IMG/VR virus record: IMGVR_UViG_3300043410_001256
Coordinates: 1 to 64,000 of that record
Origin: a virus
Reading direction: 5' to 3' (one strand)
Length of the DNA: 64,000 bases
Positions 21,640 through 39,770 of the stretch are shown here, in pieces. The notes under the pieces are model-generated. The model had not been told where the DNA came from. It did no database searches and worked only from the letters and a program-made list of their open reading frames with translations. A program made the position numbers and the translations under genes. How positions within the stretch are numbered: the first letter of the stretch is position 1; every line of letters starts with the position of its first letter.

Positions 21640-24600
21640 TTAATAGGGTTGCCACGGCTGGTCATTGCTGATCATGTCGGCTCTAACTTTAACTCTGTTG
21701 CCTGTTGTGATGCCTTGATAATAGAGATTAACGTTGCCTGATGTGTATGCTGTGGTTATACTTCCCAATGGTGCGGCATTTGGGAAAGTACTGATCATGT
21801 TATATTGAGTTCTATATGCATAGGTGCCATTATGGATCACCATGATGTCACTGACTTCGTATGCGCCAATGTCATCATTTTCAACTTGTACAACATACTT
21901 TGCAGAACGATAACGGCCTGCATCAAATGTGTGAATAAGAACTGGGCTGGTATTTACTACAATCTGCGGTGTGCCGTTCCAACCTACTGTGCCATCGTGT
22001 TTGAACAGCACAGAGTTAGCTGATATTGAGCCGTTTGCACCAGTGATAAACACACCTTCGTCAATGGCCGCTAATGTAACCAGACCCTGTGTTGAGGTTA
22101 AACCTGCAGAAACTGACAGATTAAGTTCTCTGACAGAAATAACGTCACCCGGTGCTGGCGCTTCTGTGAATGTGATCTTGGTTCCAGTGATGCTGTAAGC
22201 AACAACTGGTTGTTGTAGTGTACCGTTAATAGCAATGAATGCGCCAGCAGTTGTACAGTTACCTGACAGGAAGAACTCAGTGGTTAATCCATCGCCAGTG
22301 AATGTTTCGGCAATAATAGTTGTGGTTGCGCCTGCTTGTGGTTGGAACCACTTACCGCCGTCATAGTATTCAAGGTCACCAGCAACAGTGTTGAAACGAA
22401 TCATACCAGCAACAGGTGTGCCGTAGCCGCTGTTACCAGGACGCTGTGCTTCTGTACCCTTAGGTATCAGCATTGCGTCAGTGCTGTTAATTTGTAGTTT
22501 TGCACCAGTTACCAAATTGGCACTAACTGCTGAATTACCAATTAATACCTGATTGTATAAACTTGATGTGCTGGCCCAAACCAATGTAGCATCGTTGCCA
22601 CCGCGAACATAAAAATCTCTATTGTGATTTTGTTCATCGTTGAAACGTGCGCCTTGGCTTACGTTTAGATTACCACCAATGGCTGTACCACCTTGTACAT
22701 AGAATGCACCGCTTGAAGTGGTTGTGCTGATTGTGCTGTTAGCAATGGCTACCTGACCGTAGAAGGTGCCTTTTTGGTTGTTGTCAATTCGCAAAGCCAG
22801 GCTGTGTGCGCTGTTATCGCGCTTGGTCCACAGTTGCATTTCGCCACCAATACCATTGATGGAATTGGTTGCACCGCTGACCACTGTTCTGATACCAGAT
22901 ATCTCTTTGAAGTCACCTGTGCCTGTGTAAGCATAAGCACCAAATGTACCTACTAGGTCGCCATCAACTGAATTGGTTGGACTGTGTGTTGATCCACGGC
23001 TGGTACTTACTGTCCAACCAGGAATCTGTCCCAGTGTGTTTGCTGATATAGCATTCTGTGGTAAGTATGCATCACCTTGGTAGTAGATGTTTAGTGTGTC
23101 TGTACCACCAAAGTCTCCATTGGTTCCAACATGCAAACCAACTGAGCTGAATGTATTTCCGGTTTGTCTCTGGAAGTTAAAATCCAAGTTGTCTTGATCA
23201 ACTGATAAGTTACCGCTTGGGCTAATGAACAATACTGAGTTTGCACTAAAGGCTTTCATTACCAAGTCTTGACCAATGTTGGCCGCAGTAAACGATGCTT
23301 GACGTGGTGTGATGTTACCAATGTAGATATTGTTCATATCACCTGGTAATACCGGTTGCAGTATCAAATTACCAGATGGAGAAATATTGCCGCTACCACT
23401 ACCACTGATGGTTAGTGTGTTGGTAATGATAACGTTTGTAAAGGTTGCCTGAACTGGTGTACTACCGCCAATGGTCATATTGTCGATAGTGCCAGTTGTT
23501 TCTGGATTAATTGTTACATAACCAGAACCAGTTGGAGCGAATGTAATAATTGCGCCACTGCCGCTGGCTGTTAAATTGTTGTCAATGACTGCATTGTTTG
23601 CAGTTAGTCTTCCTTCAATTCCAACACCACCAACCACTTGCAAAGCACCAGATGTCTGGCTTGTGCTTGGATTGGTATTGCTCAGTTTCATTTGTCCAAA
23701 CTGAACACTACCGTATGTGCCTGTAAATACGTTGGCTCCACTTTCAATAGCGTTTTGTAGGTAAACTAAATTGCCTGTAGAATTTTGCCATCCCAAGAAG
23801 TTGCTACGGTCAGCATTTGTATAGTAATGTAAACGAAGACCTCTGTCTTTTCCGTCATTGGTGGTAAGTCCGCCTGCATTGGCTGATAGTCCAAGCTCAA
23901 TGATAGGATCAACAACTGTTAAAAAGTTGCTGTTGATTGTACTGATGTTGCCAATAACGTTTAGGTTACCTGTGACTGTTAGGTTGCCGCCAATGCGTGT
24001 GTTTTTGTAAACACTCAAACCGCCATCAACAATTAATGCACCTGTACCAATTGAATCTGTTTCAACTGTGCTGGTGATTTCTGTTGAGCCTGTATCAGTA
24101 ATGTTAATACGTGAAGTACCAGCACCATCAGCAATAATAATTCTATTGCTCAATGAAGAAATGGTACTACCAGTGTTTGCACCAAGAATAACGTTGTACG
24201 CACCGGTGATTACATCTCGTCCAGCTGTGTATCCAAAAAATTGGTTGTTGTCTGCGGCAGTTACAAAACGACCTGCGTCCTGGCCAACCATTGTGGAGTT
24301 TTGTCCGGTAACTCCGCGGCCAGCCCAATGACCAATCAAGGTTGAATTGTCTGCAGGACGTTCGCGGCCAGCATTGTCGCCAACTATAGTTGATCGTATG
24401 CCTGTTCCGTTATTGCCAGCACGTACACCAATTACAACGCTGTTGCCAGATATGGCTTCTGTATAGGCTGCATATCCTGCGTATACTTTACCGCCTGCGG
24501 TGTCTGCATTACCACCCCAGACCAGTGTGTTGATACTAATACTATTGGCACCAATGTTTACATTGCCACGAATACCAACACCGCCATTGACAGTAAGAGC

Positions 24601-25947
24601 ACCAGTGGTTGGGCTTGTGCTATCGTTAGTAGCAACAATCCAAACATTACCTGTGTTGTCAATGTTGATGCGAGGATTGCCTTCGCCGTCAGCAATGATG
24701 CTGTAGTTGCTTAGAGTAGCAATCGTGTTGCCGTCGTGTGCGCCAATGATTAAATTTTTGCTTCCGGTGGTTACAAGGCTACCTGAGTTGTAACCAAAGA
24801 ACTGATTGTTGGTTCCTGATACAATATTACCAGATCCCTTACCAACCAGTGTTGAGTTTGCACCCGGCGCACCTGCACCTGCACCCATACCAACTACAGT
24901 TGTGTTTTCTCCAATGCTGGTGATACCTTGTGTTGCACCCAATGCAGTTACGTTTGCGGCAATGCCTGTCTTTAACTGATTCTTACCAATAACAACATCG
25001 TTGGTCTTGTTGCTTTGGATGTATACATTTTGGCTTTCAAAGCTGGCGCTGGTACCTGTGTTTAGGTTGCCGCCGATGCCAACACCACCTGAGCCACTGA
25101 CAATAATAGCACCAATATTTGCATTGGTACTGTTGATACCTGCTGTGCCAATTACTGCACCATTGCCCGCTTGTAAAATCAAACTAGGCTGATTGTTTGG
25201 CTGAATGTAGATGTCTTTGTTTGTGCCACCGTAGGTTTGGATACTTGCACCAAACACTCCTGTGGTCAATGTCAGCGCACCATTGTTGTTGGTGTCAGTG
25301 ATCATTAAACCAGGACGAGTGCTGTTCAACTGTGTGATTTGTAGAACAGCAGTATTACCTTGAATTGCCGCTACGCCAGTGTTGGAGCCAAATACTGATC
25401 CTACACCACCAACTTGTATGTTCTGTGTAAAACTTGCACCGCCTTTGACTTGCAATGCACCAGTGGCTGTGTCAACTGCTTCAACCACGCTTGGGTCTGT
25501 GGCAGTTGTTTTAATTGTTGTGTTACCAATGATCAAATTGGCATAGGCACTACGATTGATAGCACCTTGTGTTATTCCGGTTTCAGTTGTTAGTAAACCT
25601 TCAAAGCTGCCATCAGCTTCTCTCCAAACCCAAGCAGTATTCAAACTGCCATAATTGGTTGGGCTAAGTGGTTGTAGGTTTCTGTCAATTAAAATACCAA
25701 CATCGTAGCTGGGTGTGCCAACATATCCATTGTTAAAAATTACCAATGGGTCATTGACTAGTGTGTTTGTGCTGTTAATTGTGTTTGTATTGCCGGTGAC
25801 CGTGAGGTTACCAACAATCGCAATATTAGAATTGATTGTTACATCTGGGTTAAACAGTGAGCCTACGATTGTGCCTGGAGCGATTTTTACATTCGCAAAG
25901 ATCGTAGCATCAGTGATCTGGTTATTCTTAATCCGCGTTACGGCCAT
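21640..25947 (-). CDS. Large tail-fibre/adhesin protein, 1435 residues
   Basis: The N-terminus MAVTRIKNNQITDATIFAN is a typical fibre start. Residues about 45-140 hold a module (NLTVTGNTNTINSTN, then IFNNG..GTPSYDVGILIDRN) that recurs near residue 660 and in the 220-residue protein at 28735. Two long stretches (about 350-440 and 490-610) have YadA-head-like repeats such as STLVGKGSGN, FFGYNSGS and STIVGDNAGRE, expected to fold as a left-handed beta-roll or trimeric beta-helix. TTGAL..GG units join them. The C-terminal 250 residues (AGMIRFNTVAGDLEYYDGGKW, a FTGDGLTTEFFL module and an RYRSAKYVVQVE domain) are shared with the 637-residue neighbour. The gene has a hairpin-controlled ribosome-binding site (25955-25997). 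Confidence 0.88.
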   Translation of the reverse strand: MAVTRIKNNQITDATIFANVKIAPGTIVGSLFNPDVTINSNIAIVGNLTVTGNTNTINSTNTLVNDPLVIFNNGYVGTPSYDVGILIDRNLQPLSPTNYGSLNTAWVWREADGSFEGLLTTETGITQGAINRSAYANLIIGNTTIKTTATDPSVVEAVDTATGALQVKGGASFTQNIQVGGVGSVFGSNTGVAAIQGNTAVLQITQLNSTRPGLMITDTNNNGALTLTTGVFGASIQTYGGTNKDIYIQPNNQPSLILQAGNGAVIGTAGINSTNANIGAIIVSGSGGVGIGGNLNTGTSASFESQNVYIQSNKTNDVVIGKNQLKTGIAANVTALGATQGITSIGENTTVVGMGAGAGAPGANSTLVGKGSGNIVSGTNNQFFGYNSGSLVTTGSKNLIIGAHDGNTIATLSNYSIIADGEGNPRINIDNTGNVWIVATNDSTSPTTGALTVNGGVGIRGNVNIGANSISINTLVWGGNADTAGGKVYAGYAAYTEAISGNSVVIGVRAGNNGTGIRSTIVGDNAGRERPADNSTLIGHWAGRGVTGQNSTMVGQDAGRFVTAADNNQFFGYTAGRDVITGAYNVILGANTGSTISSLSNRIIIADGAGTSRINITDTGSTEITSTVETDSIGTGALIVDGGLSVYKNTRIGGNLTVTGNLNVIGNISTINSNFLTVVDPIIELGLSANAGGLTTNDGKDRGLRLHYYTNADRSNFLGWQNSTGNLVYLQNAIESGANVFTGTYGSVQFGQMKLSNTNPSTSQTSGALQVVGGVGIEGRLTANNAVIDNNLTASGSGAIITFAPTGSGYVTINPETTGTIDNMTIGGSTPVQATFTNVIITNTLTISGSGSGNISPSGNLILQPVLPGDMNNIYIGNITPRQASFTAANIGQDLVMKAFSANSVLFISPSGNLSVDQDNLDFNFQRQTGNTFSSVGLHVGTNGDFGGTDTLNIYYQGDAYLPQNAISANTLGQIPGWTVSTSRGSTHSPTNSVDGDLVGTFGAYAYTGTGDFKEISGIRTVVSGATNSINGIGGEMQLWTKRDNSAHSLALRIDNNQKGTFYGQVAIANSTISTTTSSGAFYVQGGTAIGGNLNVSQGARFNDEQNHNRDFYVRGGNDATLVWASTSSLYNQVLIGNSAVSANLVTGAKLQINSTDAMLIPKGTEAQRPGNSGYGTPVAGMIRFNTVAGDLEYYDGGKWFQPQAGATTTIIAETFTGDGLTTEFFLSGNCTTAGAFIAINGTLQQPVVAYSITGTKITFTEAPAPGDVISVRELNLSVSAGLTSTQGLVTLAAIDEGVFITGANGSISANSVLFKHDGTVGWNGTPQIVVNTSPVLIHTFDAGRYRSAKYVVQVENDDIGAYEVSDIMVIHNGTYAYRTQYNMISTFPNAAPLGSITTAYTSGNVNLYYQGITTGNRVKVRADMISNDQPWQPY

Positions 25948-25954
25948 TATTTAA

Positions 25955-25997
25955 GCTCCTAAGGCATTGGTTATAGCTATTTAGCCAATGTTGGAGC
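25955..25997 (-). promoter_or_regulatory. RBS-sequestering hairpin with late promoter in its loop
   Basis: Read on the minus strand: 5' arm GCTCC (25997-25993) and CATTGG (25990-25985), a loop holding GCTAAATA (25985-25978), then CCAATG (25970-25965) and GGAGC (25959-25955). The last arm is part of the AGGAGC Shine-Dalgarno, 7 bases before the ATG at 25947. Read-through RNA from upstream would fold and hide the site. RNA begun at the promoter, about 25972, would lack the 5' arm and leave it free. T4 genes e, soc and 49 are regulated this way. Confidence 0.6.
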
Positions 25998-26023
25998 CTT
26001 TTAATTTTGGGGGATTTAAGACG

Positions 26024-27937
26024 TTAAACTGTTGGATCTGTCAGGTAAATTGCGTGAAATTTAACCTGAACGTCGGCGTATGCGCCAAGTGCTTGAATGT
26101 TCAAAACACCATAGACATCTCTGAATGTGGACCAGGTGATCATGCTGGATCCAGTTTTACTAACAAACGTGCTGGAAAAGTACCCATCCAAATCGTCGTG
26201 TACCACGTGCAGATCACCTGTTTCGTAGTTGTTGCCTGTGATTGACTTTGCTACATAGGTATACTTGGCTGATCTGTAAGCATTCGTGTACCACGAATCT
26301 ATGGTAGTTGTGGCTAGTCCAACATTTGCATAGCTTCTATCAGCAACAATTGGGTTGGTTGCTTGTGCCACTGTTCCGTTAAAGAAACGTACTTCAATGA
26401 TATCAGTTGTGAGCGGCACTGTGCTGAAGGTGATTTGATCACCTGCCACGCTGTAGGTTGTACTAGGACGTTGAATAACACCGTTGAAGTTAACCAGTAC
26501 TGCTTCTGTTGTGCTGGGCTGTGTGAGTGTAAAAGTTGCGCTGGTACCGTTTGGTACAATGGTCTGACTGGTAACGGTGGAGTTTGCAGGATTTTCCCAC
26601 TGTGTTCCATCAAACCATTCAATGGTTCCTAGTTCTGTGTTGAAACGGAAATCGCCTTGTATTTCAAAACCTGCAGACGGACGTTGTGCATCGTTACCAA
26701 CTGGCAATCGCATGGCTGATGCTGTGTCAACTACCACACGATTATAATTGTAGGGTGTCAAATACAACGGACCAGCCACGGTGGAAATTGTTGTATCATT
26801 GATGCTTAGGTCTTGGAGTCTGATTAATCCATCTTCAATTCTAGCTTGTTCTGCACCTTGTACAACAAATATAATATTTGCAGTGAACAAGTTGTCGTCT
26901 TGAACTTGTACTTTGGTATCACCTTGGAATATAGAACTGGTTGATGCAGTAGAAACTGTAATCAATCCATCAACGTATGCTTTGGTTGCCGCATCGCTTG
27001 GTGCAGTTGGAGTTGCTACGTTTCGAATATTATTATCAGACGCTGAGATAACACCAGAACCATCTGGGTTCAAAATCAAATCTTCATTGGTGTTAGCAGT
27101 AGAAATCGTGTTGTTAAGAAACGTCAAGTCGCCCAAACGTGTAATACCATTGGCACGTAGGTTAGTACCATCAAAGGTTAGATAGTTTGTGCCTTTAAGG
27201 AATCTGTTGTCTGCCGCATCAAGGAACAGCACCTGATTGGTGTTTGGACCAGTAAGTCTGACATTACCAGTGGACACCATGTTATTGGCTTCACTATAGG
27301 TCAGTGCTGATGTGGTCTTGATCCAGTTATTGGCCGCCATGAATGTAATAGCAGTAGGAGTACTATTACGAATAATAACGTTGGCTGCATCCAGTGTTGT
27401 AAATGTCTGTGCTTGTAAAACAGTTAGGTTATCAACCACCAAACTGTTGTTTGCGTTGTAAAAACGCAGAGTAGGGTTGTCAATTAATATTCCGTTTGCA
27501 GTGGTAAACGGAATTAATGTGTCTCTGAGATTACTAACTGCGGCCGTGGTCAGTGTGGCTAGATTGTTTACAGTTAAGAAAGTAAAAGTAGCAGGACGAG
27601 GATTTATTCCTCCAATCACAGTGCCATCAACACGACCACTGATAACATTGGCGTTGATAACCGTTACGTTGGCAACACCATTTGCATTTAGTGTAAGATT
27701 CTGATTTAATCCTTGTGTGGTAACAAGTGCGCCAGCATCAAGTACAACGTTACCTATTGCGGCATTACCGTTGACGTTAAAGACAAATGGACCACCAGAG
27801 CCGGCACGTAAAGCCATGCGTATGTTAGTAAAATCTAAGTTTACTAACGGTGCCGCTCCACTTACAAAATTTAGATCAATGCCTTGGCGATCTAAGTTTT
27901 GTAACAGCATTGGTCCTTCAATTTGTCCAAAAGCCAT
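26024..27937 (-). CDS. Tail-fibre protein, 637 residues
   Basis: Starts MAFGQIEGPMLLQNLDRQGI and continues with beta-rich, Asn/Thr-rich repeats; residues about 300-320 contain a DAATKAYVDGLI element seen in many phage fibre proteins. The C-terminal part (about 405-637) has FRFNTELGTIEWFDGTQWENP, a FTLTQPSTTEAVLVNFNG module and AYRSAKYTYVAKS, homologous by eye to the C-terminus of the 1435-residue protein and, for the middle module, to the 142-residue protein upstream. It is probably another fibre or collar-whisker-type component sharing an assembly or tip domain. It lies 25 bp downstream of the 142-residue gene and its mRNA could run into the hairpin at 25955-25997. Confidence 0.85.
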   Translation of the reverse strand: MAFGQIEGPMLLQNLDRQGIDLNFVSGAAPLVNLDFTNIRMALRAGSGGPFVFNVNGNAAIGNVVLDAGALVTTQGLNQNLTLNANGVANVTVINANVISGRVDGTVIGGINPRPATFTFLTVNNLATLTTAAVSNLRDTLIPFTTANGILIDNPTLRFYNANNSLVVDNLTVLQAQTFTTLDAANVIIRNSTPTAITFMAANNWIKTTSALTYSEANNMVSTGNVRLTGPNTNQVLFLDAADNRFLKGTNYLTFDGTNLRANGITRLGDLTFLNNTISTANTNEDLILNPDGSGVISASDNNIRNVATPTAPSDAATKAYVDGLITVSTASTSSIFQGDTKVQVQDDNLFTANIIFVVQGAEQARIEDGLIRLQDLSINDTTISTVAGPLYLTPYNYNRVVVDTASAMRLPVGNDAQRPSAGFEIQGDFRFNTELGTIEWFDGTQWENPANSTVTSQTIVPNGTSATFTLTQPSTTEAVLVNFNGVIQRPSTTYSVAGDQITFSTVPLTTDIIEVRFFNGTVAQATNPIVADRSYANVGLATTTIDSWYTNAYRSAKYTYVAKSITGNNYETGDLHVVHDDLDGYFSSTFVSKTGSSMITWSTFRDVYGVLNIQALGAYADVQVKFHAIYLTDPTV

Positions 27938-27962
27938 TTATATTTCCTTAGCCTCGGCCGAG

Positions 27963-28391
27963 TTATTGTGCCACTGTACTTGCGTATCCGTGTAGTACAA
28001 TAATTGTTTGCCCAAACGGTGGTGCAGATGTAAATGTTAGTATTGAACCACTTACGCCGTAAGCCACTGTGGGGTTTTGAAAAACGTTACCAACTACAAC
28101 AATCACTTTGTTGTTTTGCAAATTGTTTGCTTCAACAGCATAAGATTTGCTCATGGTAAATTGTGTTTGTAAACTGGTGCCAGTAAAAGTATCCTTGGTA
28201 ATAACCACTGGACCTTCTCTGGTTAAAGTGTTCCATTGATTTGAATAGTAGACTTCTACCAAGTTGTTGTCGGTATTAAATCTAAATTCACCATCAACAG
28301 GTGCATACGGACGCAGACTGGTTGAACCAGTTGGCATCACTGTGCCAAAACCGGCTGTGCGTAGTCTGTCGTTTTTAAGATGACGTCCCAT
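27963..28391 (-). CDS. Fibre-associated protein, 142 residues
   Basis: The protein reads MGRHLKNDRLRTAGFGTVMP, then FRFNTDNNLVEVYYSNQWNTL, then FTGTSLQTQFTMSK and a final SGSILTFTSAPPFGQTIIVLHG strand. The last two segments form the same small beta module found near the C-terminus of the 1435- and 637-residue fibres (F.G....F.L...... N...Q.P...Y...G..ITF...P...D.I.V). It therefore looks like a free-standing copy of that fibre module. No catalytic residues are apparent. It is separated from the 109-residue gene by 3 bp, so it belongs to the 29397-26024 operon. Confidence 0.78.
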   Translation of the reverse strand: MGRHLKNDRLRTAGFGTVMPTGSTSLRPYAPVDGEFRFNTDNNLVEVYYSNQWNTLTREGPVVITKDTFTGTSLQTQFTMSKSYAVEANNLQNNKVIVVVGNVFQNPTVAYGVSGSILTFTSAPPFGQTIIVLHGYASTVAQ

Positions 28392-28394
28392 GTG

Positions 28395-28724
28395 TTAGAT
28401 ACTCGTATAGCTAATTGTTGCAACAACTTTAAGTGCATAGGCACTTGAATCTGGATAAACATTTCCTCTAATGGTATCACCGTCACTCAGTAGTAATCTT
28501 TCATGCTCAAGAACATAAGTGTCTTGTGCGGCAACGGTTAGGTTACTGTAGATTACATTGTTACCATAGTCCACACCACCATTGGGTGTGATAAAAATAC
28601 TGCAAGTAATAGGCTCTGCAGATTTATTGCAGAGATACATTGTAGTCACAGCAATATTACCTGCTGCCGTATGGAGCACTGGAGGAGTTGATCCATTTCT
28701 GATTGTAGAGCTTATAATTGCCAT
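28395..28724 (-). CDS. Hypothetical structural protein, 109 residues
   Basis: A compact 109-residue protein predicted from its pattern to be all-beta (alternating hydrophobic strands, for instance TTMYLCNKSAEPITCSIFI, TYVLEHERLLLSDGDTI and LKVVATISYTSI). This layout resembles the small beta-sandwich proteins often seen beside fibre genes of T4-like aquatic phages. No signal peptide, membrane helix or active-site motif is present. It lies 3 bp before the next fibre gene and 10 bp after the previous one, so translation is probably coupled. I infer a head or fibre decoration role from context only. Confidence 0.7.
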   Translation of the reverse strand: MAIISSTIRNGSTPPVLHTAAGNIAVTTMYLCNKSAEPITCSIFITPNGGVDYGNNVIYSNLTVAAQDTYVLEHERLLLSDGDTIRGNVYPDSSAYALKVVATISYTSI

Positions 28725-28734
28725 GCTTTAATTC

Positions 28735-29397
28735 CTAAAATATGATTGAATATACAATCGCTTTCTTTTTACTAATCAATTCATCATTTGGCGAACTATT
28801 ATCACCAGTGGTTACATATACACCAGTGCCACCTGCGGCAACTGGACCACCATGAAGAATGTTATAGTTAACAACTGGAGCTGGAGCGGTTGTGTAAATT
28901 TTTAATGCCAGGTTACTATCTAATCTCAGACTATGACTAGATATACCTTCAGCTATAACAGACACATTGGTGTTACTGCTAATATAATTTGGACCAACAT
29001 TTAGATTTGCGCTGAGTTCTGGCGCAGGGTCTTCATTTAATTTTGTTAACCCAGTGCTGGTAGACAAAATGTTTGCTACTAGTCCTGTTGATGTTTTTAC
29101 CTGCCATTGCAGAGTGGGTTCGTTCCATAATAAGAATACGCTGGATGATGTTCCGCGATCAACTTCAATACCAGCTGGTAGCAATGGACTGCCTGACCAA
29201 CCTTTGTTTAGTGTGATAATATTGTCTGCAACATAGGTTTGTTGGACGTCTGCTTGTACAACATTGCCCAAAAAAGTATTGCCATACACTTGTAACCGTC
29301 CATTGATGATTACCACGTTTGAATCCAAAGTGATAGGATCATCGTGATTGATGGTGTTAATTGTATATGGTCCGCTGACGTTTTTAATAATACTCAT
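28735..29397 (-). CDS. Fibre-like protein, 220 residues
   Basis: The first 120 residues (VVIINGRLQVYGNTFLGNV, then TYVADNIITLNKGW, LLPAGIEVDRGTSSSVFL and WNEPTLQWQVKTS) match the N-terminal module of the 1435-residue fibre (LVNDPLVIFNNG..GTPSYDVGILIDR...W.W). The remainder has LNVGPNYISSNTN and ends in a short charged tail (ISKKKAIVYSIIF). It is likely a short fibre component that shares an assembly surface with the large protein. It is the first gene of an operon running to 26024; a late promoter is at 29420-29427. Confidence 0.75.
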   Translation of the reverse strand: MSIIKNVSGPYTINTINHDDPITLDSNVVIINGRLQVYGNTFLGNVVQADVQQTYVADNIITLNKGWSGSPLLPAGIEVDRGTSSSVFLLWNEPTLQWQVKTSTGLVANILSTSTGLTKLNEDPAPELSANLNVGPNYISSNTNVSVIAEGISSHSLRLDSNLALKIYTTAPAPVVNYNILHGGPVAAGGTGVYVTTGDNSSPNDELISKKKAIVYSIIF

Positions 29398-29419
29398 TAT
29401 ATGAACTCGCCGTTTGCTT

Positions 29420-29427
29420 TATTTATG
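29420..29427 (-). promoter_or_regulatory. Late promoter (CATAAATA)
   Basis: Minus strand CATAAATA, 23 bp before the ATG at 29397 and directly after the terminator of the gene upstream. Confidence 0.75.
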
Positions 29428-29443
29428 AGACGTATAGCCAAAC

Positions 29444-29471
29444 AAAAAGAGGGCATTTCTGCCCTCTTTTT
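29444..29471 (-). terminator. Rho-independent terminator
   Basis: A perfect 12-bp stem with A5 on one side and T5 on the other, core GAGGGCA/TGCCCTC, 4-base loop. It ends the 240-residue gene on the minus strand and would act in both directions. Confidence 0.92.
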
Positions 29472-29489
29472 AGTTACAAACTATCTAGA

Positions 29490-30212
29490 TTAGCTAGATT
29501 GTACTTGTACAGTGATGTCAGTTGCACTGACGTTGCCTGTACCGCTTACGCTGTCAAATGTCCACTTGTAGCTTTCACCTGTTGAGCTGTAAACCTTACG
29601 GTCAGTGATTTTGGAAATGTTAAATTGCGAACCATCTGAGAATGTAGCAATAACAGTCATTGTGCCTGCGCTGTATGGGTTCAAGTTAGGACTTGTAACC
29701 AATTTTACTGTTTCAGAATATGAAGCATTTCTGCAGATCCATGTTCTGCTACCACGTTGTTTCACCATGTCAGCATTCCAATCACCGTAACTTGCGCCAG
29801 TAAAGAATACGTTTGCACGAATAGCAGCCGCAGTTGTTCCAGATGTTAGTGTTGCTGTAGCACTTGCCGCTCCAGAGTTTGCACCAGTGAATGTGATTGC
29901 TGGGTTAGCAGTGGTATAGCCTGCACCAGCGTTGCCCAGTGTAAGTGCTTTAATAGCACCGTTAGCAAACAAATGAACTGTGCTAACTGTAGCAGTTGTT
30001 CCGCCTGCTAATAGAGGTGCGGCAATAGTTGCAACAACGTTTGCGCTGTAATAACCAGTACCACGTGTAATACTGTTTAGTGTAATGTTACCAGAAACAT
30101 CGGCTGCAATTGATTCTCCACCAATACTCGCGGTACCGCTTTGACCACCGTCACCACCTGTGGCACCGTATGTTCGTGGATTATAATATTTTTTCTTAAT
30201 TGGACGTCCCAT
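29490..30212 (-). CDS. Virion structural protein, 240 residues
   Basis: Begins MGRPIKKKYYNPRTYGATGG, a basic start that I associate with small structural proteins encoded close to gp23 in T4-like aquatic phages. Residues about 55-115 carry GTGYYSANVVATIAAP and GNAGAGYTTANPAITFTG, a glycine-tyrosine beta repeat (G.GY....P.I.F.G) also seen in the giant gp7-position protein around 61390-61560. The C-terminal half has WICRNASYSETVKLV and a DGSQFNISKITDRKVYSS strand run. No enzymatic motif. SD AAGGAG lies 6 bases before ATG 30212. It is a one-gene unit between a possible late promoter (30289) and the terminator at 29444. Confidence 0.82.
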   Translation of the reverse strand: MGRPIKKKYYNPRTYGATGGDGGQSGTASIGGESIAADVSGNITLNSITRGTGYYSANVVATIAAPLLAGGTTATVSTVHLFANGAIKALTLGNAGAGYTTANPAITFTGANSGAASATATLTSGTTAAAIRANVFFTGASYGDWNADMVKQRGSRTWICRNASYSETVKLVTSPNLNPYSAGTMTVIATFSDGSQFNISKITDRKVYSSTGESYKWTFDSVSGTGNVSATDITVQVQSS

Positions 30213-30288
30213 TGTTTTCTCCTTGTGTTATGGCGTTCTAGGCCTACGCAGTGGGTCTGCATAAACTCTCCTTTCAGAGCGAACATTA

Positions 30289-30296
30289 TATTTACC
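30289..30296 (-). promoter_or_regulatory. Possible late promoter (GGTAAATA)
   Basis: Minus strand GGTAAATA has the same form as the motifs at 47384-47391 and 54708-54715. It would give an unusually long leader of about 70 bases before ATG 30212. Confidence 0.4.
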
Positions 30297-30303
30297 TAAT
30301 AGT

Positions 30304-30332
30304 TTGCTTTATATTGTTGTCTGCTATATAAT
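30304..30332 (+). promoter_or_regulatory. Sigma-70-type promoter for small RNA
   Basis: Plus strand TTGCTT (30304-30309), 17-bp spacer, TATAAT (30327-30332). The -10 is perfect and the -35 keeps TTG. It points toward the two-hairpin transcript ending at 30405; no plus-strand gene follows. Confidence 0.6.
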
Positions 30333-30337
30333 AGCTA

Positions 30338-30405
30338 CAGGTGCTAGTCAGACAGCATCCTGTTTAGTTAGGTACCCGGAGTAGAAATGCTCCGGGTATT
30401 TTTTT
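30338..30405 (+). ncRNA. Candidate small structured RNA (about 68 nt)
   Basis: Begins 6 bases after a TATAAT box. A first hairpin pairs CAGGTGCT (30338-30345) with AGCA-T-CCTG (30354-30362), leaving one bulged T and an 8-base loop (AGTCAGAC). A short linker follows, then a terminator hairpin with seven T. There is no start codon with a ribosome-binding site. It lies opposite to the minus-strand genes on both sides, between the capsid gene terminator and the next gene's leader. The function is unknown; host mimicry, sponge or antisense action are all possible. Confidence 0.5.
30372..30405 (+). terminator. Rho-independent terminator, plus strand
   Basis: TACCCGGAG (30373-30381) pairs with CTCCGGGTA (30390-30398), 8-base loop, then T7 (30399-30405). 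The T tract is on the plus strand although both flanking genes are on the minus strand. Confidence 0.9.
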
Positions 30406-30412
30406 ATCCAAC

Positions 30413-30435
30413 AAAAAAGCGCCTTGCGGCGCTTT
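30413..30435 (-). terminator. Rho-independent terminator after gp23
   Basis: AAAGCGCC/GGCGCTTT stem with TTGC loop. The minus strand continues in T6. It closes the head operon downstream of the capsid gene. Confidence 0.92.
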
Positions 30436-30478
30436 CCTGCTCCTCCCATCCCTGAGTGGATTTTTTTATAATGTGTGA

Positions 30479-31660
30479 TTATTGGAAAGACAAAGTACCA
30501 GAAGTGATACCAACCTTAGCCAAGTAGTCACCAGCGTTACCTAGAGAAGACGCTGTGTTTGTCAACTCAACATATCCGTAACGAGTCATAAAGCCTACGA
30601 CTGGTTCGAATGTGTTTGGATCTAGAACAACACCAGAGCTCATTAGAGGAACATATGGGCAATAGAATGCTGCCGCATCTGCTTCGCTTGAACCCTTGTA
30701 ACCGATTAGAACGGCTGTACCTGTGTTTGCATAGCTGTCTACGTAAACACGCATAGCGCCATTCAATGTACCAACAAACTTGGTGTTTGTAGGTGCTTCG
30801 AATGTACCTTCTGTTGTACGAGCAAAAGCTGAAGTAGTTGCAGATTGCAATACTGTTAGAGCTTCAGCAGATACAACTGCCCAGTTAGCCGCACCACGAC
30901 GTGTACGCTGAGCGATCAAGTTTGCACTACGGTTGATTAGAACTGCCAATGCGGCATGCTCGTCACCAACGAAAGTAGCTGTACCAGAAACTGTGGACTG
31001 GTCATATGTGAATTCAGTTGCTGCCAATGAACGTAGGCTTGCCAAAATTTCTTGGTCAATTTCAACTGTGATTTCTTGTGCCAAAGCTGCCATGATTTCA
31101 GCTTCAACATCTAAACCGTGCATAGCTTGAGCATCTTGAGCTGCCTCAAATGTCCAACGTGCGCTTAGTTTACGTGTCTTAGCTTCGACAACTTGTTTCA
31201 AGATTTGAACGTTGATACGGTTACCAGGTGTACCTTCTAGGGTACTAGTAGCGTATGCCTTGCTTGTTGCTGGGTTACCAGAATAAGCAGTTGCAATCTT
31301 GAATGGGCTTAGTGCTTCGTCACCAGCTAGTGCGCCATCTGTACCTGTAGTTGCGCTAACAGTGTCAGCATAACGTACACGTAGAGTATGGATTTGTGCA
31401 ACTGGGCCAGTCATTGGCTGAACACCAACGATTTCGTTAGCAATAACGGTTGGCATTACACGACGAATCACTGGTAGAATAACGCGATTCAATGTTGCTA
31501 CGTTGCTTGAGCTAGTAGCACCAGCAGTTGCGTTTTCTGCCAAGTACTTGCGAGTGTTCTCTAGGATCACACCCATGCTGGTTCTCTTAGAACCTTGTAG
31601 GCCTTCTAACAGGGCTTCTTTTGTTTCGCCCCAACGGCTCTCTAATAGTGCGGTTGTCAT
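30479..31660 (-). CDS. 23: Major capsid protein gp23-like
   Basis: A 393-residue HK97-fold major capsid protein of the T4 gp23 family, recognised from NRVILPVIRRVMPTVIANEI, VGVQPMTGPVAQIHTLRVRY, FEAAQDAQAMHGLDVEAE and the C-terminal VVGFMTRYGYVEL. T4 gp23 is 521 residues, so this is a compact member. The N-terminus (residues 1-45, with LLEG and AEN) is a likely delta-domain removed by the gp21 protease, whose T4 sites follow (I/L)xE. SD GGAGAAGG precedes the ATG. The gene follows scaffold and protease in the T4 order and ends at a strong terminator. No gp24 vertex gene follows. Confidence 0.93.
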   Translation of the reverse strand: MTTALLESRWGETKEALLEGLQGSKRTSMGVILENTRKYLAENATAGATSSSNVATLNRVILPVIRRVMPTVIANEIVGVQPMTGPVAQIHTLRVRYADTVSATTGTDGALAGDEALSPFKIATAYSGNPATSKAYATSTLEGTPGNRINVQILKQVVEAKTRKLSARWTFEAAQDAQAMHGLDVEAEIMAALAQEITVEIDQEILASLRSLAATEFTYDQSTVSGTATFVGDEHAALAVLINRSANLIAQRTRRGAANWAVVSAEALTVLQSATTSAFARTTEGTFEAPTNTKFVGTLNGAMRVYVDSYANTGTAVLIGYKGSSEADAAAFYCPYVPLMSSGVVLDPNTFEPVVGFMTRYGYVELTNTASSLGNAGDYLAKVGITSGTLSFQ

Positions 31661-31685
31661 TTTATTTCCTTCTCCTGTTTAGGGT

Positions 31686-32783
31686 TTACTTTAGCCCTGC
31701 TAAACGCTTGATTTCAATCACGTTAGTGGCATCATCAGAGGCGCTGACCTTAGCAGTCTTATCACCAGTTTGTACTGAACGTCCTTCGCTTAACACAGCC
31801 TTTGGAGCTGCCTTAATTGGAGTGTTATTCAACACAGCTGGAAGATACTTATCAAATGCAGTTTGTAATTTGTCTGTCTGCACTGATTCAAGAAGTTCGC
31901 TCATTACTGCGGCCTTCTCTTTGTTCAAAGGTTTCAACAACACAGAAAGAGTTTCTTTACGTGTTGCAGATTCTTTGATAATCTTAATTTCTTTTTCTTT
32001 CGTTTCTACCAGAGCGGCCTTTTCATCGGCGGCACGAGTAGCCTCGGCTAATTGCTGAGCTTGAGCATCCATCTCTGCACGTAGCTTGGCAATTTCACGG
32101 TTCTCATTGAGGTGAGTAACTGCAAATTCACTAGCAAATGCCTCAAACAAACGACGACCAAACATGTTCTCACGAGCACTTTGGATATCTTCTTTGAGTT
32201 GTACGATTTCTGTTTCAAGGTTTTGAGCAATAGACTCTTTAACCAACTTGGCGCTACGTTCTACAAACTGACTCTTTAGTTGAGTCAAATGTTGTTTAGC
32301 TTCTGCAACTAAACGAACGCGAGCTTCTACCACAGCTTTCTTATCTGTTTCAAATTCTTGAATCTCTTCAGCTAACGCTGTGATAACAAACTTCTCAAGA
32401 CGACTTACGTTTTCTTGATATTGCTTGCGATCAGCACGTAGTTCCTTCAATTCCTCAGCTAGTTTGCTGATCATGAATTGATCAAACTTGCTTGCGTTTT
32501 CAGACATGCGAGTTTGGAACTTCACACGGTCTTCTGCGAGAGCACGTTTTTCTTCTTGGAACTCACGAATTTCTTCAGATAGAGCGTCGGTAACCATGTG
32601 GTCTAGGGCTTCAACCATTACACTCTTGTCATGCTCATAGCGTTGTGCAAATTCTTCGCGCAACTCTGCACGTGCAGTTTCACGTGCCTCATGAAGCTTG
32701 GCTTCCCAAGCTTCAGAGATGGCCTGACGAGTGTCTTCGTTGATAATGCCGGCATCCAACAGTGGTTTGATAGCATCAAACAT
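31686..32783 (-). CDS. 22: Prohead scaffold gp22-like
   Basis: A 365-residue highly charged protein, predicted to be nearly all helix and coiled coil (long runs of Glu/Lys/Arg/Ala with heptad-like spacing, residues about 15-275). The C-terminal 90 residues (SVLLKPLNKEKAAVMSELLE, then a Lys/Ser-rich tail ending EIKRLAGLK) form a separate segment. T4 gp22 is the main core protein around which the gp23 shell assembles and is then cut to peptides by gp21; it has 269 residues. Position between the protease and capsid genes is decisive. It starts 10 bp after the protease gene. Confidence 0.88.
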   Translation of the reverse strand: MFDAIKPLLDAGIINEDTRQAISEAWEAKLHEARETARAELREEFAQRYEHDKSVMVEALDHMVTDALSEEIREFQEEKRALAEDRVKFQTRMSENASKFDQFMISKLAEELKELRADRKQYQENVSRLEKFVITALAEEIQEFETDKKAVVEARVRLVAEAKQHLTQLKSQFVERSAKLVKESIAQNLETEIVQLKEDIQSARENMFGRRLFEAFASEFAVTHLNENREIAKLRAEMDAQAQQLAEATRAADEKAALVETKEKEIKIIKESATRKETLSVLLKPLNKEKAAVMSELLESVQTDKLQTAFDKYLPAVLNNTPIKAAPKAVLSEGRSVQTGDKTAKVSASDDATNVIEIKRLAGLK

Positions 32784-32793
32784 TACCTATCTC

Positions 32794-33432
32794 CTATAAT
32801 TTCAAATCATTGATTAGGCGCACAACAGCCTCTTTCAGATACTTCTGAACTTTTTGATCATGTACTGCGTCACCTGCTGTGTCCAAAACACGATGTCCAT
32901 GACGCATGTTCATTAGACCTTCGTAAATTGCTTTTGGATAAGCGTGTGGTGCGCTAGGTTGTGCTACTATGTCCACAGTGATTATTTCAAAGTCACTGAC
33001 TTGACCTGAACTCTCGTTAACGTTGCCGCTGCCACGTGAGCTCACTCCTAACTTGACTCCGCTAGTAAGCATGGCTTTCACCAGCTCACCCATCGGGGTC
33101 GGTAGAATCTTTAGTTTACCTATACCAGCATGTCCGTCCATGTACATTTCTGTAATCATGTGGCTCACACGGTCTAGATTAATTTTTAGGTCATCTGGAT
33201 GGTCTACTTCACCTAGAACGCTGTTACCTTTTCTTAACTGTTCGTTAATTTGGGTAACAGCTTTCTCGATTTCGTGAATTGGGTATATGCGCTTGTTTTC
33301 GTTCTTGATACCGCCTTCAATGCATATACCTTTCAGATAGAGGTTCTTACCTTTGCCGTCGGGAGCGTCTTCGTTGAGCAACTCCAACCTAGCGGCATCA
33401 AATGTAAGATTCTCTTTTAGGTACATAGCCAT
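32794..33432 (-). CDS. 21: Prohead maturation protease gp21-like
   Basis: At 212 residues it has the same length as T4 gp21. Herpes-assemblin-type serine protease: the catalytic histidine is probably in GEVDHPDD (about residue 77) and the serine in VKLGVSSRGSGNV (about residue 130); the last segment FEIITVDIVAQPSAPHA is the conserved strand after the active site. It cleaves the scaffold, core proteins and capsid N-terminus inside the prohead. It follows the acidic core gene and precedes gp22, exactly as in T4. Confidence 0.92.
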   Translation of the reverse strand: MAMYLKENLTFDAARLELLNEDAPDGKGKNLYLKGICIEGGIKNENKRIYPIHEIEKAVTQINEQLRKGNSVLGEVDHPDDLKINLDRVSHMITEMYMDGHAGIGKLKILPTPMGELVKAMLTSGVKLGVSSRGSGNVNESSGQVSDFEIITVDIVAQPSAPHAYPKAIYEGLMNMRHGHRVLDTAGDAVHDQKVQKYLKEAVVRLINDLKL

Positions 33433-33445
33433 ATTAACTACCTAA

Positions 33446-34441
33446 TTATTTTGCTTTGAAACCAGATTTGCCACCTGGTTCAATGCTGTGTTTGTTAACA
33501 CTCACGCTACCATCAGTTGTGCTGCCTTCTGCAGACTTAGCACTTGCTTTAGTATTGTAATAGTTTTGAGCGCCTTTGTTGCCACCTGGCTTGTTTACAT
33601 TGCGTTTAGCAACATCAATTTCCTGTGGAGCTTTCAAAAAGCCGCCTGCTTTACCTTTTGGGGACTGACCGTTAGGATCTGGAACGTTGTCTTGACGGTT
33701 CATGTTTTCATTTGTACCGCCCATGTCGTTAGGCATGTCGTCAACGATGCTGGTCTTGTTTACGCTTACGCTACCGCCTTTAGCACCAACTTCTTTGCCT
33801 TCAGCGTCGCCTTTTTTGTCAGCGCCATGACCACCAGATACTTTTTCTACGTATTCACGAATACGCTCTGCTTCAGTTCTAGCACGACGTGATTCAGCAA
33901 CTGAATCTTCTTCGTCATCTGCTTCTTCTTCGTCATCTGCTTCTTCGTCGCCTTCTTCATCACCCTCTTCGTCGCTGCCGCCAAATGGGTTATCGTCGCC
34001 TTCTTCATCACCCATGTCATCGCCGCCGAAGTCGTCACCGCCTTCTTCGTCGCCCATCAAGCGATCAAATTCTGCTTTTAATTCGTCAATTGCAGACTCT
34101 AGGTCCATAATGTCAGACTTGGTAGCTGGAGCTTCGCTGTCGCCAGCACCGCCTAAACCACCCATGTCATCGCCGCCTGGCATGTCATCGCCGCCTGGCT
34201 CGCCGGACATGTCATCACCTGGCATGCCCAATTCATCGTCTTCTTCAGTCATGCCATTTTCGTCCATGGCAACTTCTTGAGCAAGGTTACCCACGCGATC
34301 ATGGCTAACTGCTGGTTCTTCGTCCATTAATGATTCATAGATTTCACGGCTGCGCTCTACCACGATTGAGTGGAAAAGAGCACGAGCTTTGTCTTCGTCA
34401 TCATTAATGATATGTTCTATAAGCTGTTCGTATTTGTTCAT
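33446..34441 (-). CDS. Acidic prohead core protein (gp67-like, enlarged)
   Basis: The first 45 residues (YEQLIEHIINDDEDKARALF, then HSIVVERSREIYESLMDEE) resemble the N-terminus of T4 gp67, an 80-residue core protein. After that comes a low-complexity acidic region (about 60-170) with tandem GGDDMPGGDDMGG and EEGDEEGDEEADDEEE runs. The basic or polar C-terminal 170 residues (VSVNKTSIVDDMP, later VSVNKHSIEPGG) contain two copies of a VSVNK.SI motif. It should sit inside the prohead and be proteolysed at maturation. Late promoter CTTAAATA at 34475. Its length of 331 residues is four times that of T4 gp67. Confidence 0.8.
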   Translation of the reverse strand: MNKYEQLIEHIINDDEDKARALFHSIVVERSREIYESLMDEEPAVSHDRVGNLAQEVAMDENGMTEEDDELGMPGDDMSGEPGGDDMPGGDDMGGLGGAGDSEAPATKSDIMDLESAIDELKAEFDRLMGDEEGGDDFGGDDMGDEEGDDNPFGGSDEEGDEEGDEEADDEEEADDEEDSVAESRRARTEAERIREYVEKVSGGHGADKKGDAEGKEVGAKGGSVSVNKTSIVDDMPNDMGGTNENMNRQDNVPDPNGQSPKGKAGGFLKAPQEIDVAKRNVNKPGGNKGAQNYYNTKASAKSAEGSTTDGSVSVNKHSIEPGGKSGFKAK

Positions 34442-34474
34442 GAGAACTCCTCTAGTAATATGGCTATGTTATTT

Positions 34475-34482
34475 TATTTAAG
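34475..34482 (-). promoter_or_regulatory. Late promoter variant (CTTAAATA)
   Basis: Minus strand CTTAAATA 34 bp before the prohead core ATG; the same octamer stands before the portal gene at 36574. Confidence 0.55.
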
Positions 34483-34536
34483 ATAACGGCTAAGATTTCG
34501 CCAGTTATGTGGATGTTTTTGAGCGATTTGCAAAAT

Positions 34537-34782
34537 TTATAGGCTTGCAGGTGCTCCAACACCGGCTGCACCCTCTTCCGGAGCTGTTTTATATTGCTTG
34601 CTTACCCTCTTGAGCTGTTGCTCATGTTCTACTTTTTTAACGTCATTCATCATACGCAAACGGTTAATCTGCGCTAATGTGAGTCTAGTTTTGCGTCGAT
34701 CATCCAGCTTGATGGTGGTATGATCTTCTTGGGGTTCGTAACGTCCGGGCAATACTGGATTAAAAAATTCGTATAAATTCAT
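34537..34782 (-). CDS. Small protein between portal and prohead core genes
   Basis: An 81-residue protein beginning MNLYEFFNPVLPGRYEPQED with a basic helical centre (RRKTRLTLAQINRLRMMNDV, then KKVEHEQQLKRV) and an Ala/Gly/Pro tail. Its place between genes 20 and 67-like matches the small core proteins (gp67/gp68) in T4, and its size fits, but the sequence is basic rather than acidic and I do not recognise a family. It is probably an internal prohead or core component. It starts 24 bp after the portal stop and is followed by a 95-bp gap that contains the next late promoter. Confidence 0.7.
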   Translation of the reverse strand: MNLYEFFNPVLPGRYEPQEDHTTIKLDDRRKTRLTLAQINRLRMMNDVKKVEHEQQLKRVSKQYKTAPEEGAAGVGAPASL

Positions 34783-34805
34783 AACTTGTATTTACCCAAA
34801 ACGGT

Positions 34806-36551
34806 TTATATTGCCGGCGGTATGCCGCTTGCAGGCGTGGATGCTGTGCCTCCTGGGACTGGACTGCCCATGCCTGGACCAGCTGGCATTTCACCTGGCA
34901 TGCCCATTCCTGGCTCTCCTTCAGCAGGGACGTCTGCGGCTTCTAGGTCGCTTTGGATGCCACCTGGGGTTACGCCCACTGAACGTAGCTCGGCAGCATC
35001 AGCAGGTGCAGTTTCAACATCACCTTGTTCTTCTGCCCACATGCTTTCGTTTTCTGTCATTTCTTGTTCAGTTAAGCCCAAGAAACGTTGCATTAGGAAA
35101 CGTTTGGAGAAGTAAGGAAACTGCTCCAACTGTGTAAATGTGTTGATACGTGCCATATCAACGTCAGCTTGACGGTACTGTGCAAAGTTCTGTGGGGGAT
35201 TAAACTTAAGATCAAACAGTTGTCCGTCGATACTAATACCGCGCCACTTCATGTACAGCTTGAACTCTTTGTCTAGATATTCAGCAACAATCTTTTGTAA
35301 ACGCAAACAGTATTGGTTAAAGCGCCATTCCTGAATCAGTGCTGTGCCTACTTTACCATCAGTAAAACTGCCCTGTGCGCCGTCGTCTAGTCCTGTAGGC
35401 AAATAGCTACTTGGAATGCGTAAACCACGGAATAATTTGTTGGTAAAGAAGTGTAAATCAGTGATTTCACCTAGGTTCTGACCGCCTGCTAGTGTCTCTA
35501 CGCTAGACCCACGGCCGTCTGCTGTAACAGGGAAGAAATAGTCTTCATTTTGGCTCAATGGGTTGTAAGTAGCATCCATCATGTTTGTTCCGCCACCTGT
35601 TTGTGTGGGGATTCTACGCTGATGCACTTCGTTTTTAATACGCTCAACAAAGGCCATAGCCATGTGACTTGGCATGTTTCCTACGTCAATTTTGAAGATT
35701 CTACGCTCTGGAGCACGTTGTACACGGTAGATAATAATAGCATCTTCCAGCAGTTCTTTCTGCTTAAACACCTTGAAAATGTTCTCTAAAACAGAGTTGC
35801 CGAACGGCCAATATACGTCCAGGCCCTCTGTTAAACTCATGTGTAAAACGTGTTCTGCGTTGATTGCTACTTCGTTTTTAGCCTGGCTAAAACGGCTACC
35901 ACCTGCTGTATAATTGCTGGGTTGTACATAGCTACCAGTGGGTCCACCCACTTGCGGATGGTTAATATATGTGTCTGTTGCGGCTACTGCGGTTACACTT
36001 AGGTTTTGCAGGTTAGGATTAATGTCTTTGATAATGTACTGCTCAGGCTGTTTGCCCTCTGCTTCGTTTACAATAATCTTAACCACTTTTGACATTTCAA
36101 CCCAGAACAGTTTGAATGTTTCTGGATCACGCACAAACACTTGATCTCCGTATTTGATAACGCTACGGAAAATACGAAAGATACGTTTGTTCAGTTCATT
36201 GAGACTTACCCACTGATGCAGTTGTTCTTTGATAATTTTAATTTCGTTTTCAGTTGGTTGCTCTTTGAAATCTAGTGTAAAAGCATTACCATACTCTTCG
36301 TTGTCTTGTGTGCTGAATTCTGCTAGAATGTCTAGGGCCGCATTGACTTCGCTGTCCATGTCCATTTGTTCATACTGGTTGTATCGCTCAACACGATTTG
36401 GATGTCCAATATAAATTTCTGGCAGACTGCTTTGCCAGTTGCGATAACCAGGGTTAGTAGGGGTAGAGCTTCCATTGAATGTGAATGGACTAACAGCACC
36501 TCCCATATTCTGGGGTATGTTAGAGCTCTTAAAATATTTTTTCCAAGACAT
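34806..36551 (-). CDS. 20: Portal vertex protein gp20-like
   Basis: A 581-residue portal of the T4 gp20 family (T4: 524). Recognisable blocks: LPEIYIGHPNRVERYNQYEQ and MDMDSEVNAALDILAEF near residues 43-80; IIYRVQRAPERRIFKIDVGN and MPSHMAMAFVERIKNEVH near 280-320; DYFFPVTADGRGSSVETLAG, then LFRGLRIPSSYLP near 345-400; FNQYCLRLQKIVAEYLDKEF near 430. The C-terminal 90 residues are Gly/Pro/Met/Glu-rich and unlike T4. It forms the dodecameric DNA channel on which the prohead starts and to which terminase docks. Late promoter variant at 36574. Confidence 0.94.
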   Translation of the reverse strand: MSWKKYFKSSNIPQNMGGAVSPFTFNGSSTPTNPGYRNWQSSLPEIYIGHPNRVERYNQYEQMDMDSEVNAALDILAEFSTQDNEEYGNAFTLDFKEQPTENEIKIIKEQLHQWVSLNELNKRIFRIFRSVIKYGDQVFVRDPETFKLFWVEMSKVVKIIVNEAEGKQPEQYIIKDINPNLQNLSVTAVAATDTYINHPQVGGPTGSYVQPSNYTAGGSRFSQAKNEVAINAEHVLHMSLTEGLDVYWPFGNSVLENIFKVFKQKELLEDAIIIYRVQRAPERRIFKIDVGNMPSHMAMAFVERIKNEVHQRRIPTQTGGGTNMMDATYNPLSQNEDYFFPVTADGRGSSVETLAGGQNLGEITDLHFFTNKLFRGLRIPSSYLPTGLDDGAQGSFTDGKVGTALIQEWRFNQYCLRLQKIVAEYLDKEFKLYMKWRGISIDGQLFDLKFNPPQNFAQYRQADVDMARINTFTQLEQFPYFSKRFLMQRFLGLTEQEMTENESMWAEEQGDVETAPADAAELRSVGVTPGGIQSDLEAADVPAEGEPGMGMPGEMPAGPGMGSPVPGGTASTPASGIPPAI

Positions 36552-36573
36552 GTATAATTGGTTCCGTGTCGTA

Positions 36574-36581
36574 TATTTAAG
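36574..36581 (-). promoter_or_regulatory. Late promoter variant (CTTAAATA)
   Basis: Minus strand CTTAAATA, 23 bp before the portal ATG, in the 33-bp gap after the tape-measure gene stop. Confidence 0.6.
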
Positions 36582-36584
36582 TGA

Positions 36585-39500: not shown

Positions 39501-39731
39501 CAGTGCTTCTTTGTGTTCGTATTGTGCTCTGTTGGTTAAACGCAAACTTGCACTTAGACGTTTGTAGCTGTCTGTGGCATCTTTACTGCTTTTCAAAAGA
39601 TTATCTATACGTTCTTTGTATGTTGCTCCATCAGAATCACCGCTGGAGCTTGATCGGCCCGCAGACGGGTTGCGGTCTCCCATAACCTCTTGCATTGCCC
39701 GTTTGAATGCTTCAATTTGCTCGCGATCCAT
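36585..39731 (-). CDS. Tail tape-measure protein candidate
   Basis: A 1048-residue protein. The first 130 residues are charged and helical (coiled coil), a central helical part is rich in Ala/Gln/Met, and a Gly/Ala hydrophobic stretch at about 780-822 (AAVGAAIGVWFGGVGAGPG, then AIIGGLLGSIGAGVLYYM) could insert in a membrane, as in tape-measure proteins. A following Trp-rich FSKWWQSWTFKGVWDSIG segment is also typical. T4's tape measure gp29 has 590 residues; a longer protein would imply a longer tail. It is transcribed divergently from gp26 and its downstream ORF, which fits the usual chaperone/tape-measure adjacency. Late promoter at 39763. I did not find a peptidase motif. Confidence 0.8.
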   Translation of the reverse strand: MDREQIEAFKRAMQEVMGDRNPSAGRSSSSGDSDGATYKERIDNLLKSSKDATDSYKRLSASLRLTNRAQYEHKEALRQANNELYDLEEALRKHRAGTALLTPLQLKEVEARRKEISSMQDRGEVFQKFTGGVEKWGKFLIGYYGAVQMATIQGVGQVMSTIQSGGSGFAIANAQMEMELNIANVHAQQLATATQMAGTAVAAIPGFASKLLGLGMVLNAESNKVQSELKTAAARLYNQVLMTGGDQLLRAYKDLTKAGVVVAGGADDIAKALQFNGVMMMTFDQFKQGVQENADALVRTGMGIGQASLQMGRVAAQLRGQKLDRQLQAMGVSVEDFMGIAASEMAYMKQGQFGRSLKDSEILQRSVEYAQSLSIINQLTGKSIRDLKEKAKANQADFAYQQEMANLPDSVRATVTKAMDTFDDEIRRSIVQTAKFGVATGDSMKLLAARFPELQVIFRDAAKSMRNGTMTPDEAIKIRTRLSSVYQTIMKDQTFGTIAASNSKLAPAINSLSSMMVEGSRFTADAVKNIKENQRQTMEDAEEAGKTGKPKNMTQMLTDIEAAGRDLTAKFQQHIIDRLPEIGTKIKASLEEANRLIEEGLGGFQRKFGGGDIPGMGEINKWLPIAIAALLAVDALKLIRWATSGRFGGGTTTTATEGGAKVEEGKTRTERFKEWFKEKNPFKGKELTGSAKDVAEMELRSKAAAAEIRQAKIATALEKAAPLLKNVNRANIGVQTLMYGYEMNQIREKKNRGEITAEQANEEYTGKTAETAGGVAAAWAGGKIGAAVGAAIGVWFGGVGAGPGAIIGGLLGSIGAGVLYYMTDASKWVNKIGQSFSKWWQSWTFKGVWDSIGKTLGSTFTTISDWVEDSWKTVKQKFSNLNPMSWFGDDKPTTTNGKPRSAPSAPAGATVTVTGKLPEGLKAFDGALAVSLSSAGNAITFTANAKGILTSAFVDALKSAQGGAGPLGTTSVRPGDFYDPKAKKGKAFTENDLIEYGKGDPIIFALGKLTKETAEGVEVMRSLATKMGAVVSANSDSVRYLKKIGNNF

Positions 39732-39740
39732 TTTGCTACC

Positions 39741-39748
39741 TATAAATA
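39741..39748 (+). promoter_or_regulatory. Late promoter for gp26 (exact TATAAATA)
   Basis: Plus strand TATAAATA, 33 bp before ATG 39782. SD GAGG is at 39770-39773. It crosses the leader of the divergent tape-measure gene. Confidence 0.85.
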
Positions 39749-39762
39749 AACGTATATTTCAA

Positions 39763-39770
39763 TATTTATG
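39763..39770 (-). promoter_or_regulatory. Late promoter for tape-measure gene (CATAAATA)
   Basis: Minus strand CATAAATA, 32 bp before ATG 39731. It lies downstream of the opposing plus-strand promoter, so the two divergent transcripts overlap at their 5' ends by roughly 4 bases or start face to face. Confidence 0.75.

Follow-up and report, generated by a model that had tools for sequence, protein, structure and literature searches.

A conserved small RNA gene beside the major capsid gene of a T4-like jumbo phage and its predicted pairing with the capsid message

Introduction

Viral record IMGVR_UViG_3300043410_001256 is 94,879 bases long, and its first 64 kb, the whole stretch analysed here and referred to as the window, contain a short plus-strand element at positions 30304-30405 that lies between two genes of the opposite strand. 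The source is a jumbo T4-like phage, and head maturation protease and portal proteins encoded in the window match PHROGs. On one side of the element is the gene for the major capsid protein (MCP; 30479-31660, minus; PHROG 138 major head protein, E 1.6e-100), which shares 64–70% amino-acid identity with the nearest isolates among the matches listed; on the other is a structural gene encoding 240 aa (29490-30212, minus), for which PHROG and Pfam gave no match. A first-pass annotation of the DNA had described the element as TTGCTT-N17-TATAAT followed by a 5' hairpin and a strong terminator with T7, all on the plus strand between minus-strand neighbours, and had assigned the capsid gene a separate terminator of its own. 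The sequence bears out each of these points, the capsid terminator lying at about 30413-30435 (minus) and having equivalents after MCP in relatives.

In T4-type phages the production of capsid protein is generally attributed to late transcription. A conserved small RNA (sRNA) aimed at the MCP mRNA would, if true, add a post-transcriptional layer to this control in jumbo phages. Here we describe the element, which is a conserved RNA gene, and weigh the case, which we consider somewhat better than even, that it specifies an sRNA of ~67 nt with a sigma-70-type promoter that base-pairs with the MCP ribosome-binding region.

Architecture of the element

The promoter comprises a -35 element, TTGCTT (30304-30309), and a -10 element, TATAAT (30327-30332), 17 nt apart. 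Agreement of the former with TTGACA extends to three of six positions only, and for this reason the promoter was not listed by a promoter scan. Sites of the form TTGNNN-N16-18-TATAAT are scarce, with only four in the whole 94.9-kb record, and comparison among the 13 non-identical loci that carry the element (defined below) supports a promoter proper to the sRNA: the 17-nt spacing is kept in 13/13, TATAAT in 12/13 (TATACT in L144; contigs bear L numbers and genomes G numbers throughout) and the TTGCTT hexamer in ten. A conserved block begins 8 nt past TATAAT and the element stops at a T-run; with the start placed by promoter spacing, the predicted transcript is about 67 nt long (30339-30405, plus). 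It overlaps no gene, the nearest gene ends being at 30212 and 30479.

Three parts make up this transcript. Hairpin 1 (30340-30345/30354-30359) has six pairs, GGTGCT / AGCATC, around the loop AGTCAGAC. An unpaired tail, UCCUGUUUAG (30358-30367), follows, and then an intrinsic terminator (30370-30405; stem 30370-30401, T7 30399-30405) of up to 14 pairs with a GAAA loop, which has the highest G-C pair count (6) among 23 terminator-like sites in 22000-40000.

Conservation and covariation

An exact 21-mer of the hairpin matches six other viral contigs (L084-L089), in all of them at the same location, so that the element cannot be put down to chance. A relaxed pattern search added L092 and L093, and a second search for loci by scaffold protein, independent of the sRNA sequence, yielded 77 new loci. 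Ten of these scored 44–88 bits with covariance model R2, the next scoring 19; the model already contains some of the ten and others repeat earlier contigs; L141, L143/L204, L146 and L144/L145 are new carriers. The element is thus present in 14 other viral contigs, or 12 after two near-identical pairs are merged, giving 15 contigs and 13 non-identical loci with the window included. Its position is constant, between MCP and the next structural gene with its freshwater-2-type leader, and antisense to both. Since the search patterns force conservation of parts of the sRNA core, the telling features are those that no pattern required, namely TTTGCTT, TATATAATA and the T-run, which are invariant in nine sequences; the T-run is broken in L144.

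When R2 was applied to 83 sources, made up of 80 capsid loci, the window and the remaining part of the record, the window alone matched clearly, at 88.6 bits for a sequence that is itself included in the model, against 22.7 for the next. On whole records, model R1 gave a clear match in G001 only, out of 20 (next 18.8 bits), and R2 in G001, G010, G035 and G036, out of 21 (next 22.5 bits); the weak matches were treated as chance. Also dropped as chance were L090, L091 and L094-L102, found with relaxed viral patterns and devoid of promoter and terminator. R1 matches in L077, L079 and L065 were rejected because they depend on other hairpins and terminators and are located on the capsid strand, that in L079 overlapping a manA RNA. 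Cellular genomes contained no match for an 18-mer, and their single relaxed-pattern match was discarded for want of the hairpin. Against phages and plasmids, BLAST with the region returned nothing beyond short, weak matches.

The fold that the first-pass annotation had drawn from one sequence proves to be shared: hairpin, loop, promoter and terminator are kept across the 13 non-identical loci, with the stems maintained by covariation. In hairpin 1, three of the six pairs show compensatory changes, and 95% of alignment cells are paired compared with 17–52% in slid controls (7 distinct rows), whereas the loop TCAGAC is unchanged in 13/13. The terminator stem has pair changes on both sides among relatives; MAFFT misplaces some of its rows, and the arms were therefore paired from the outside in. 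Because the stem varies by such compensatory changes, an exact search with it found no viral contigs. An 8-codon open reading frame (ORF) in the core is absent from diverged kin, where covariation is seen instead. Judged from its sequence, the element appears to be a non-coding RNA ending in an intrinsic terminator and U-run. In L086 a promoter half of the L085 type is joined to a terminator and gene of the L084 type, a mosaic that suggests recombination within the sRNA core.

Predicted pairing with the capsid message

The tail UCCUGUUUAG can pair along 10 nt with CUAAACAGGA, a stretch of the MCP ribosome-binding region, and the predicted target, CTAAACAGGA (31673-31682, minus), ends 12 nt before the ATG at 31660. 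All three genomes first searched (G000, G010 and G001) have this 10-nt complementarity. By length of contiguous match, MCP exceeds all other starts in G000 (70 starts) and G010 (53 starts), and ties for longest among the 450 of G001; dinucleotide-shuffled cores reach 10 nt on MCP in 0.125% of 20,000 trials. The mean duplex energy in nine carriers, -22.6, was attained by 2 of 2000 shuffles. Among 32 three-way orthologous starts, MCP has the best worst-case energy (-22.0), followed by the scaffold gene (-17.6). The third-best conserved partner of the core is the start region of a gene at 45401-46414 (minus), named by eye as phosphoesterase-like.

Complementarity of 8 or 10 nt to the locus's own MCP start occurs in 12 of the 13 carrier loci, ending 12–13 nt before the ATG (11 in L146) and covering an AGGA common in the phage group. 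L146 has an altered tail and still pairs over 8 nt, while in L144/L145 the hairpin and a weaker promoter are kept and tail and MCP site have both changed. We tabulated sRNA and site over 128 distinct MCP loci, these being 169 less 41, of which 10 duplicated other rows, 2 had no usable MCP start and 29 had <200 nt downstream or an incomplete MCP. Thirteen have both an sRNA with the tail and the site (near-identical L143 and L204 are each included), none has the sRNA with tail only, one has the site only and 114 have neither; L144/L145 are counted among the 114, and if they are taken as carriers the site accompanies 13 of 15.

Several observations weigh against this pairing as the function of the RNA. 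When all 70 start regions of G000 are considered, 4.75% of shuffled cores reach a 10-nt match with at least one of them, and 10-mer complements are not enriched genome-wide (about 26 outside the gene itself, 8–43 in five shuffles). Under a permissive duplex ranking MCP comes only 2nd of 70, 2nd of 53 and 11th of 452. The locus with the site only, L021, lacks the sRNA throughout its 6.4-kb contig. Carriers are clustered on the MCP tree, built by a quick method with SH-aLRT support only, on which the sRNA trait needs three changes; the independent contrasts number two on starred branches and three on all, are concordant and fall far from significance. Strong core duplexes also form in the non-carriers L032 (-23.3), L021 (-23.2) and L020 (-21.2), because the ribosome-binding motif is widespread in the phage group, and the motif seems in places to be older than the sRNA. 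Finally, MCP pairing leaves the invariant UCAGAC loop unaccounted for.

With these points set against it, regulation of the capsid message remains the reading we favour, and we infer that pairing would repress MCP translation. A host-type sigma-70 promoter would drive plus-strand transcription of the sRNA, probably early, given that type of promoter; G001 has numerous promoters of the TTGAC type ahead of reading frames, with TATAAT at 17 nt, the class of these promoters being inferred. The tail of the sRNA would then anneal to the MCP mRNA at the upstream AGGA and block ribosome binding, delaying or tuning capsid synthesis until late transcription either overtakes the sRNA or turns it off. A second AAGGA, nearer the MCP ATG, stays unpaired, which makes occlusion of ribosome binding likely but not certain. 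The loop GUCA and the 5' GUGC could make extra contacts around the start codon, and the hairpin might also lend the RNA stability or contact another partner. The U-rich tail and poly-U end would fit binding by Hfq or another chaperone.

Alternative explanations

The conserved loop is central to two further proposals, each of which we regard as rather unlikely. According to the first, the sRNA is real and chiefly engages either a protein or a host RNA, bound through the UCAGAC hairpin, the match of its UCCU to the purine-rich capsid ribosome-binding site being secondary or incidental. The loop is indeed the most conserved part (13/13), whereas the tail has been lost in L144/L145, and one sRNA may have several targets; yet the tail is kept jointly with the MCP site in 12/13 loci and MCP ranks first among conserved starts for pairing. 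The second, equally tentative, extends the favoured mechanism to a two-part switch of head assembly, in which early sRNA would block the capsid ribosome-binding site (and, more weakly, that of the scaffold gene), and the UCAGAC hairpin would sense a second partner (a chaperone, a host RNA or a phage protein) that lifts the block at the onset of replication and late transcription.

The first-pass annotation had argued that the plus-strand terminator has no gene to serve other than the short transcript. This holds in the window but needs qualifying for some relatives, in which the terminator might serve a gene, as methyltransferase ORFs begin shortly past the T-run (L084, L086 and L089, with Pfam matches for L086 and L089; by eye L144/L145). 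Promoter and terminator might accordingly form a leader or attenuator that governs read-through into a plus-strand methyltransferase cargo gene, of which the window would retain a relic after loss of the gene. We think this improbable. The methyltransferase gene is absent from the window and from L085, L087, L088, L092, L093, L141, L143 and L146, and in all of these the hairpin, tail and terminator are conserved, although a relic leader would be expected to decay. In L084, L086, L089 and L144 the methyltransferase ORF is situated between the sRNA terminator and the MCP terminator.

The remaining possibilities, antisense, peptide and chance, fit worse. Control in cis, by antisense or convergent transcription, of read-through transcripts that enter the freshwater-2 gene from the capsid gene is more doubtful still than attenuation: the sRNA lies opposite the read-through stretch, with its promoter back to back with the late-type box of the leader, but it runs across no coding sequence and is located beyond the terminator of the capsid gene itself, and this account would leave the tail match to an MCP ribosome-binding site 1.3 kb away unexplained. 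Least credible is a leaderless micro-ORF in place of an RNA (GTG/ATG CTA GTC AGA CAG CAT CCT GTT TAG, (V/M)LVRQHPV), which stays open in the nine nearest sequences and, in altered form, in L141, but which we rejected because it shows no synonymous change among those nine, has no space for a ribosome-binding site and is not kept in the diverged L143, L146 and L144, where the changes track base pairing.

Relation to known RNAs

A search of Rfam (4227 families) produced nothing at gathering thresholds over the window, and relaxed thresholds gave no plus-strand family. The best weak plus-strand match, NsiR1 (RF02399), is an sRNA of similarly short length, but its scores of 22.7 bits in the window, 19.7 in L087 and 13.8 in L109 fall well below the gathering threshold of 39, and the element is not a member. 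Freshwater-2 RNA (RF02980) shares the intergenic region, but serves there, on the opposite strand, as leader of the following gene. With regard to possible mimicry of a host CRISPR repeat (Racr), a relaxed pattern scan of the genome collection, which was not aimed at repeats, returned a single unrelated match.

Among phage RNAs, c4 RNA of P1 and P7 is described as pairing around the ribosome-binding site of the ant mRNA and blocking its translation, in the setting of temperate-phage immunity (PMC12197685). The two are alike in being phage-encoded RNAs that pair, here by prediction, at the ribosome-binding site of a phage mRNA, and differ in that the target of c4 is ant, whereas the RNA described here, from a T4-like jumbo phage, is predicted to target a capsid gene. 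RNAC and RNAD of T4 are likewise small RNAs of a T4-type phage (PMC3014915), from which the present sRNA differs in having its own promoter beside the capsid gene together with a predicted target. According to that 2010 review, T4 had yielded no functionally characterised small trans-acting regulatory RNA, and it was hoped that related genomes would supply candidates (PMC3014915). The sRNA described here is a candidate of that kind, with a predicted 10-nt target site. In the literature listings searched, we recognised no phage sRNA aimed at a capsid mRNA. The mechanism is of a known kind, comparable to that of c4 RNA, and the sRNA family and its predicted target are new to the collections and literature searched.

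Other features of the locus

The structural gene at 29490-30212 is preceded by a freshwater-2-type leader RNA (30210-30281, minus) that diverges from the sRNA and scores 47.2 bits against a gathering threshold of 49.9 (E 2.4e-6); in some relatives (L077, L079, L084 and L191) RF02980 exceeds gathering. Upstream of the leader is a TAAATA box (30289-30294, minus), which we take to be of the T4 late type, and in kin the freshwater-2 RNA lies behind such a box and directly before MGRP-type genes. Many relatives share a conserved GGGATGGGAAG-like stretch ahead of the capsid terminator, which lies at about 30438-30465 (minus) in the window. In other lineages known RNAs occupy the slot between MCP and the freshwater-2 leader, namely glutamine riboswitch aptamers (in tandem at L191:6408-6519) and a manA RNA (L079:7224-7622), so that the slot seems to collect RNA elements. 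Downstream of MCP in non-carriers (L021, L034, L045, L048 and others) the same slot often holds putative homing endonucleases, presumably of the HNH or GIY-YIG type, named by eye from their motifs. Elsewhere in the window, an apparent ORF desert at 58282-63999 (plus) is a single ORF, at least 1906 codons long, that continues past the end of the window.
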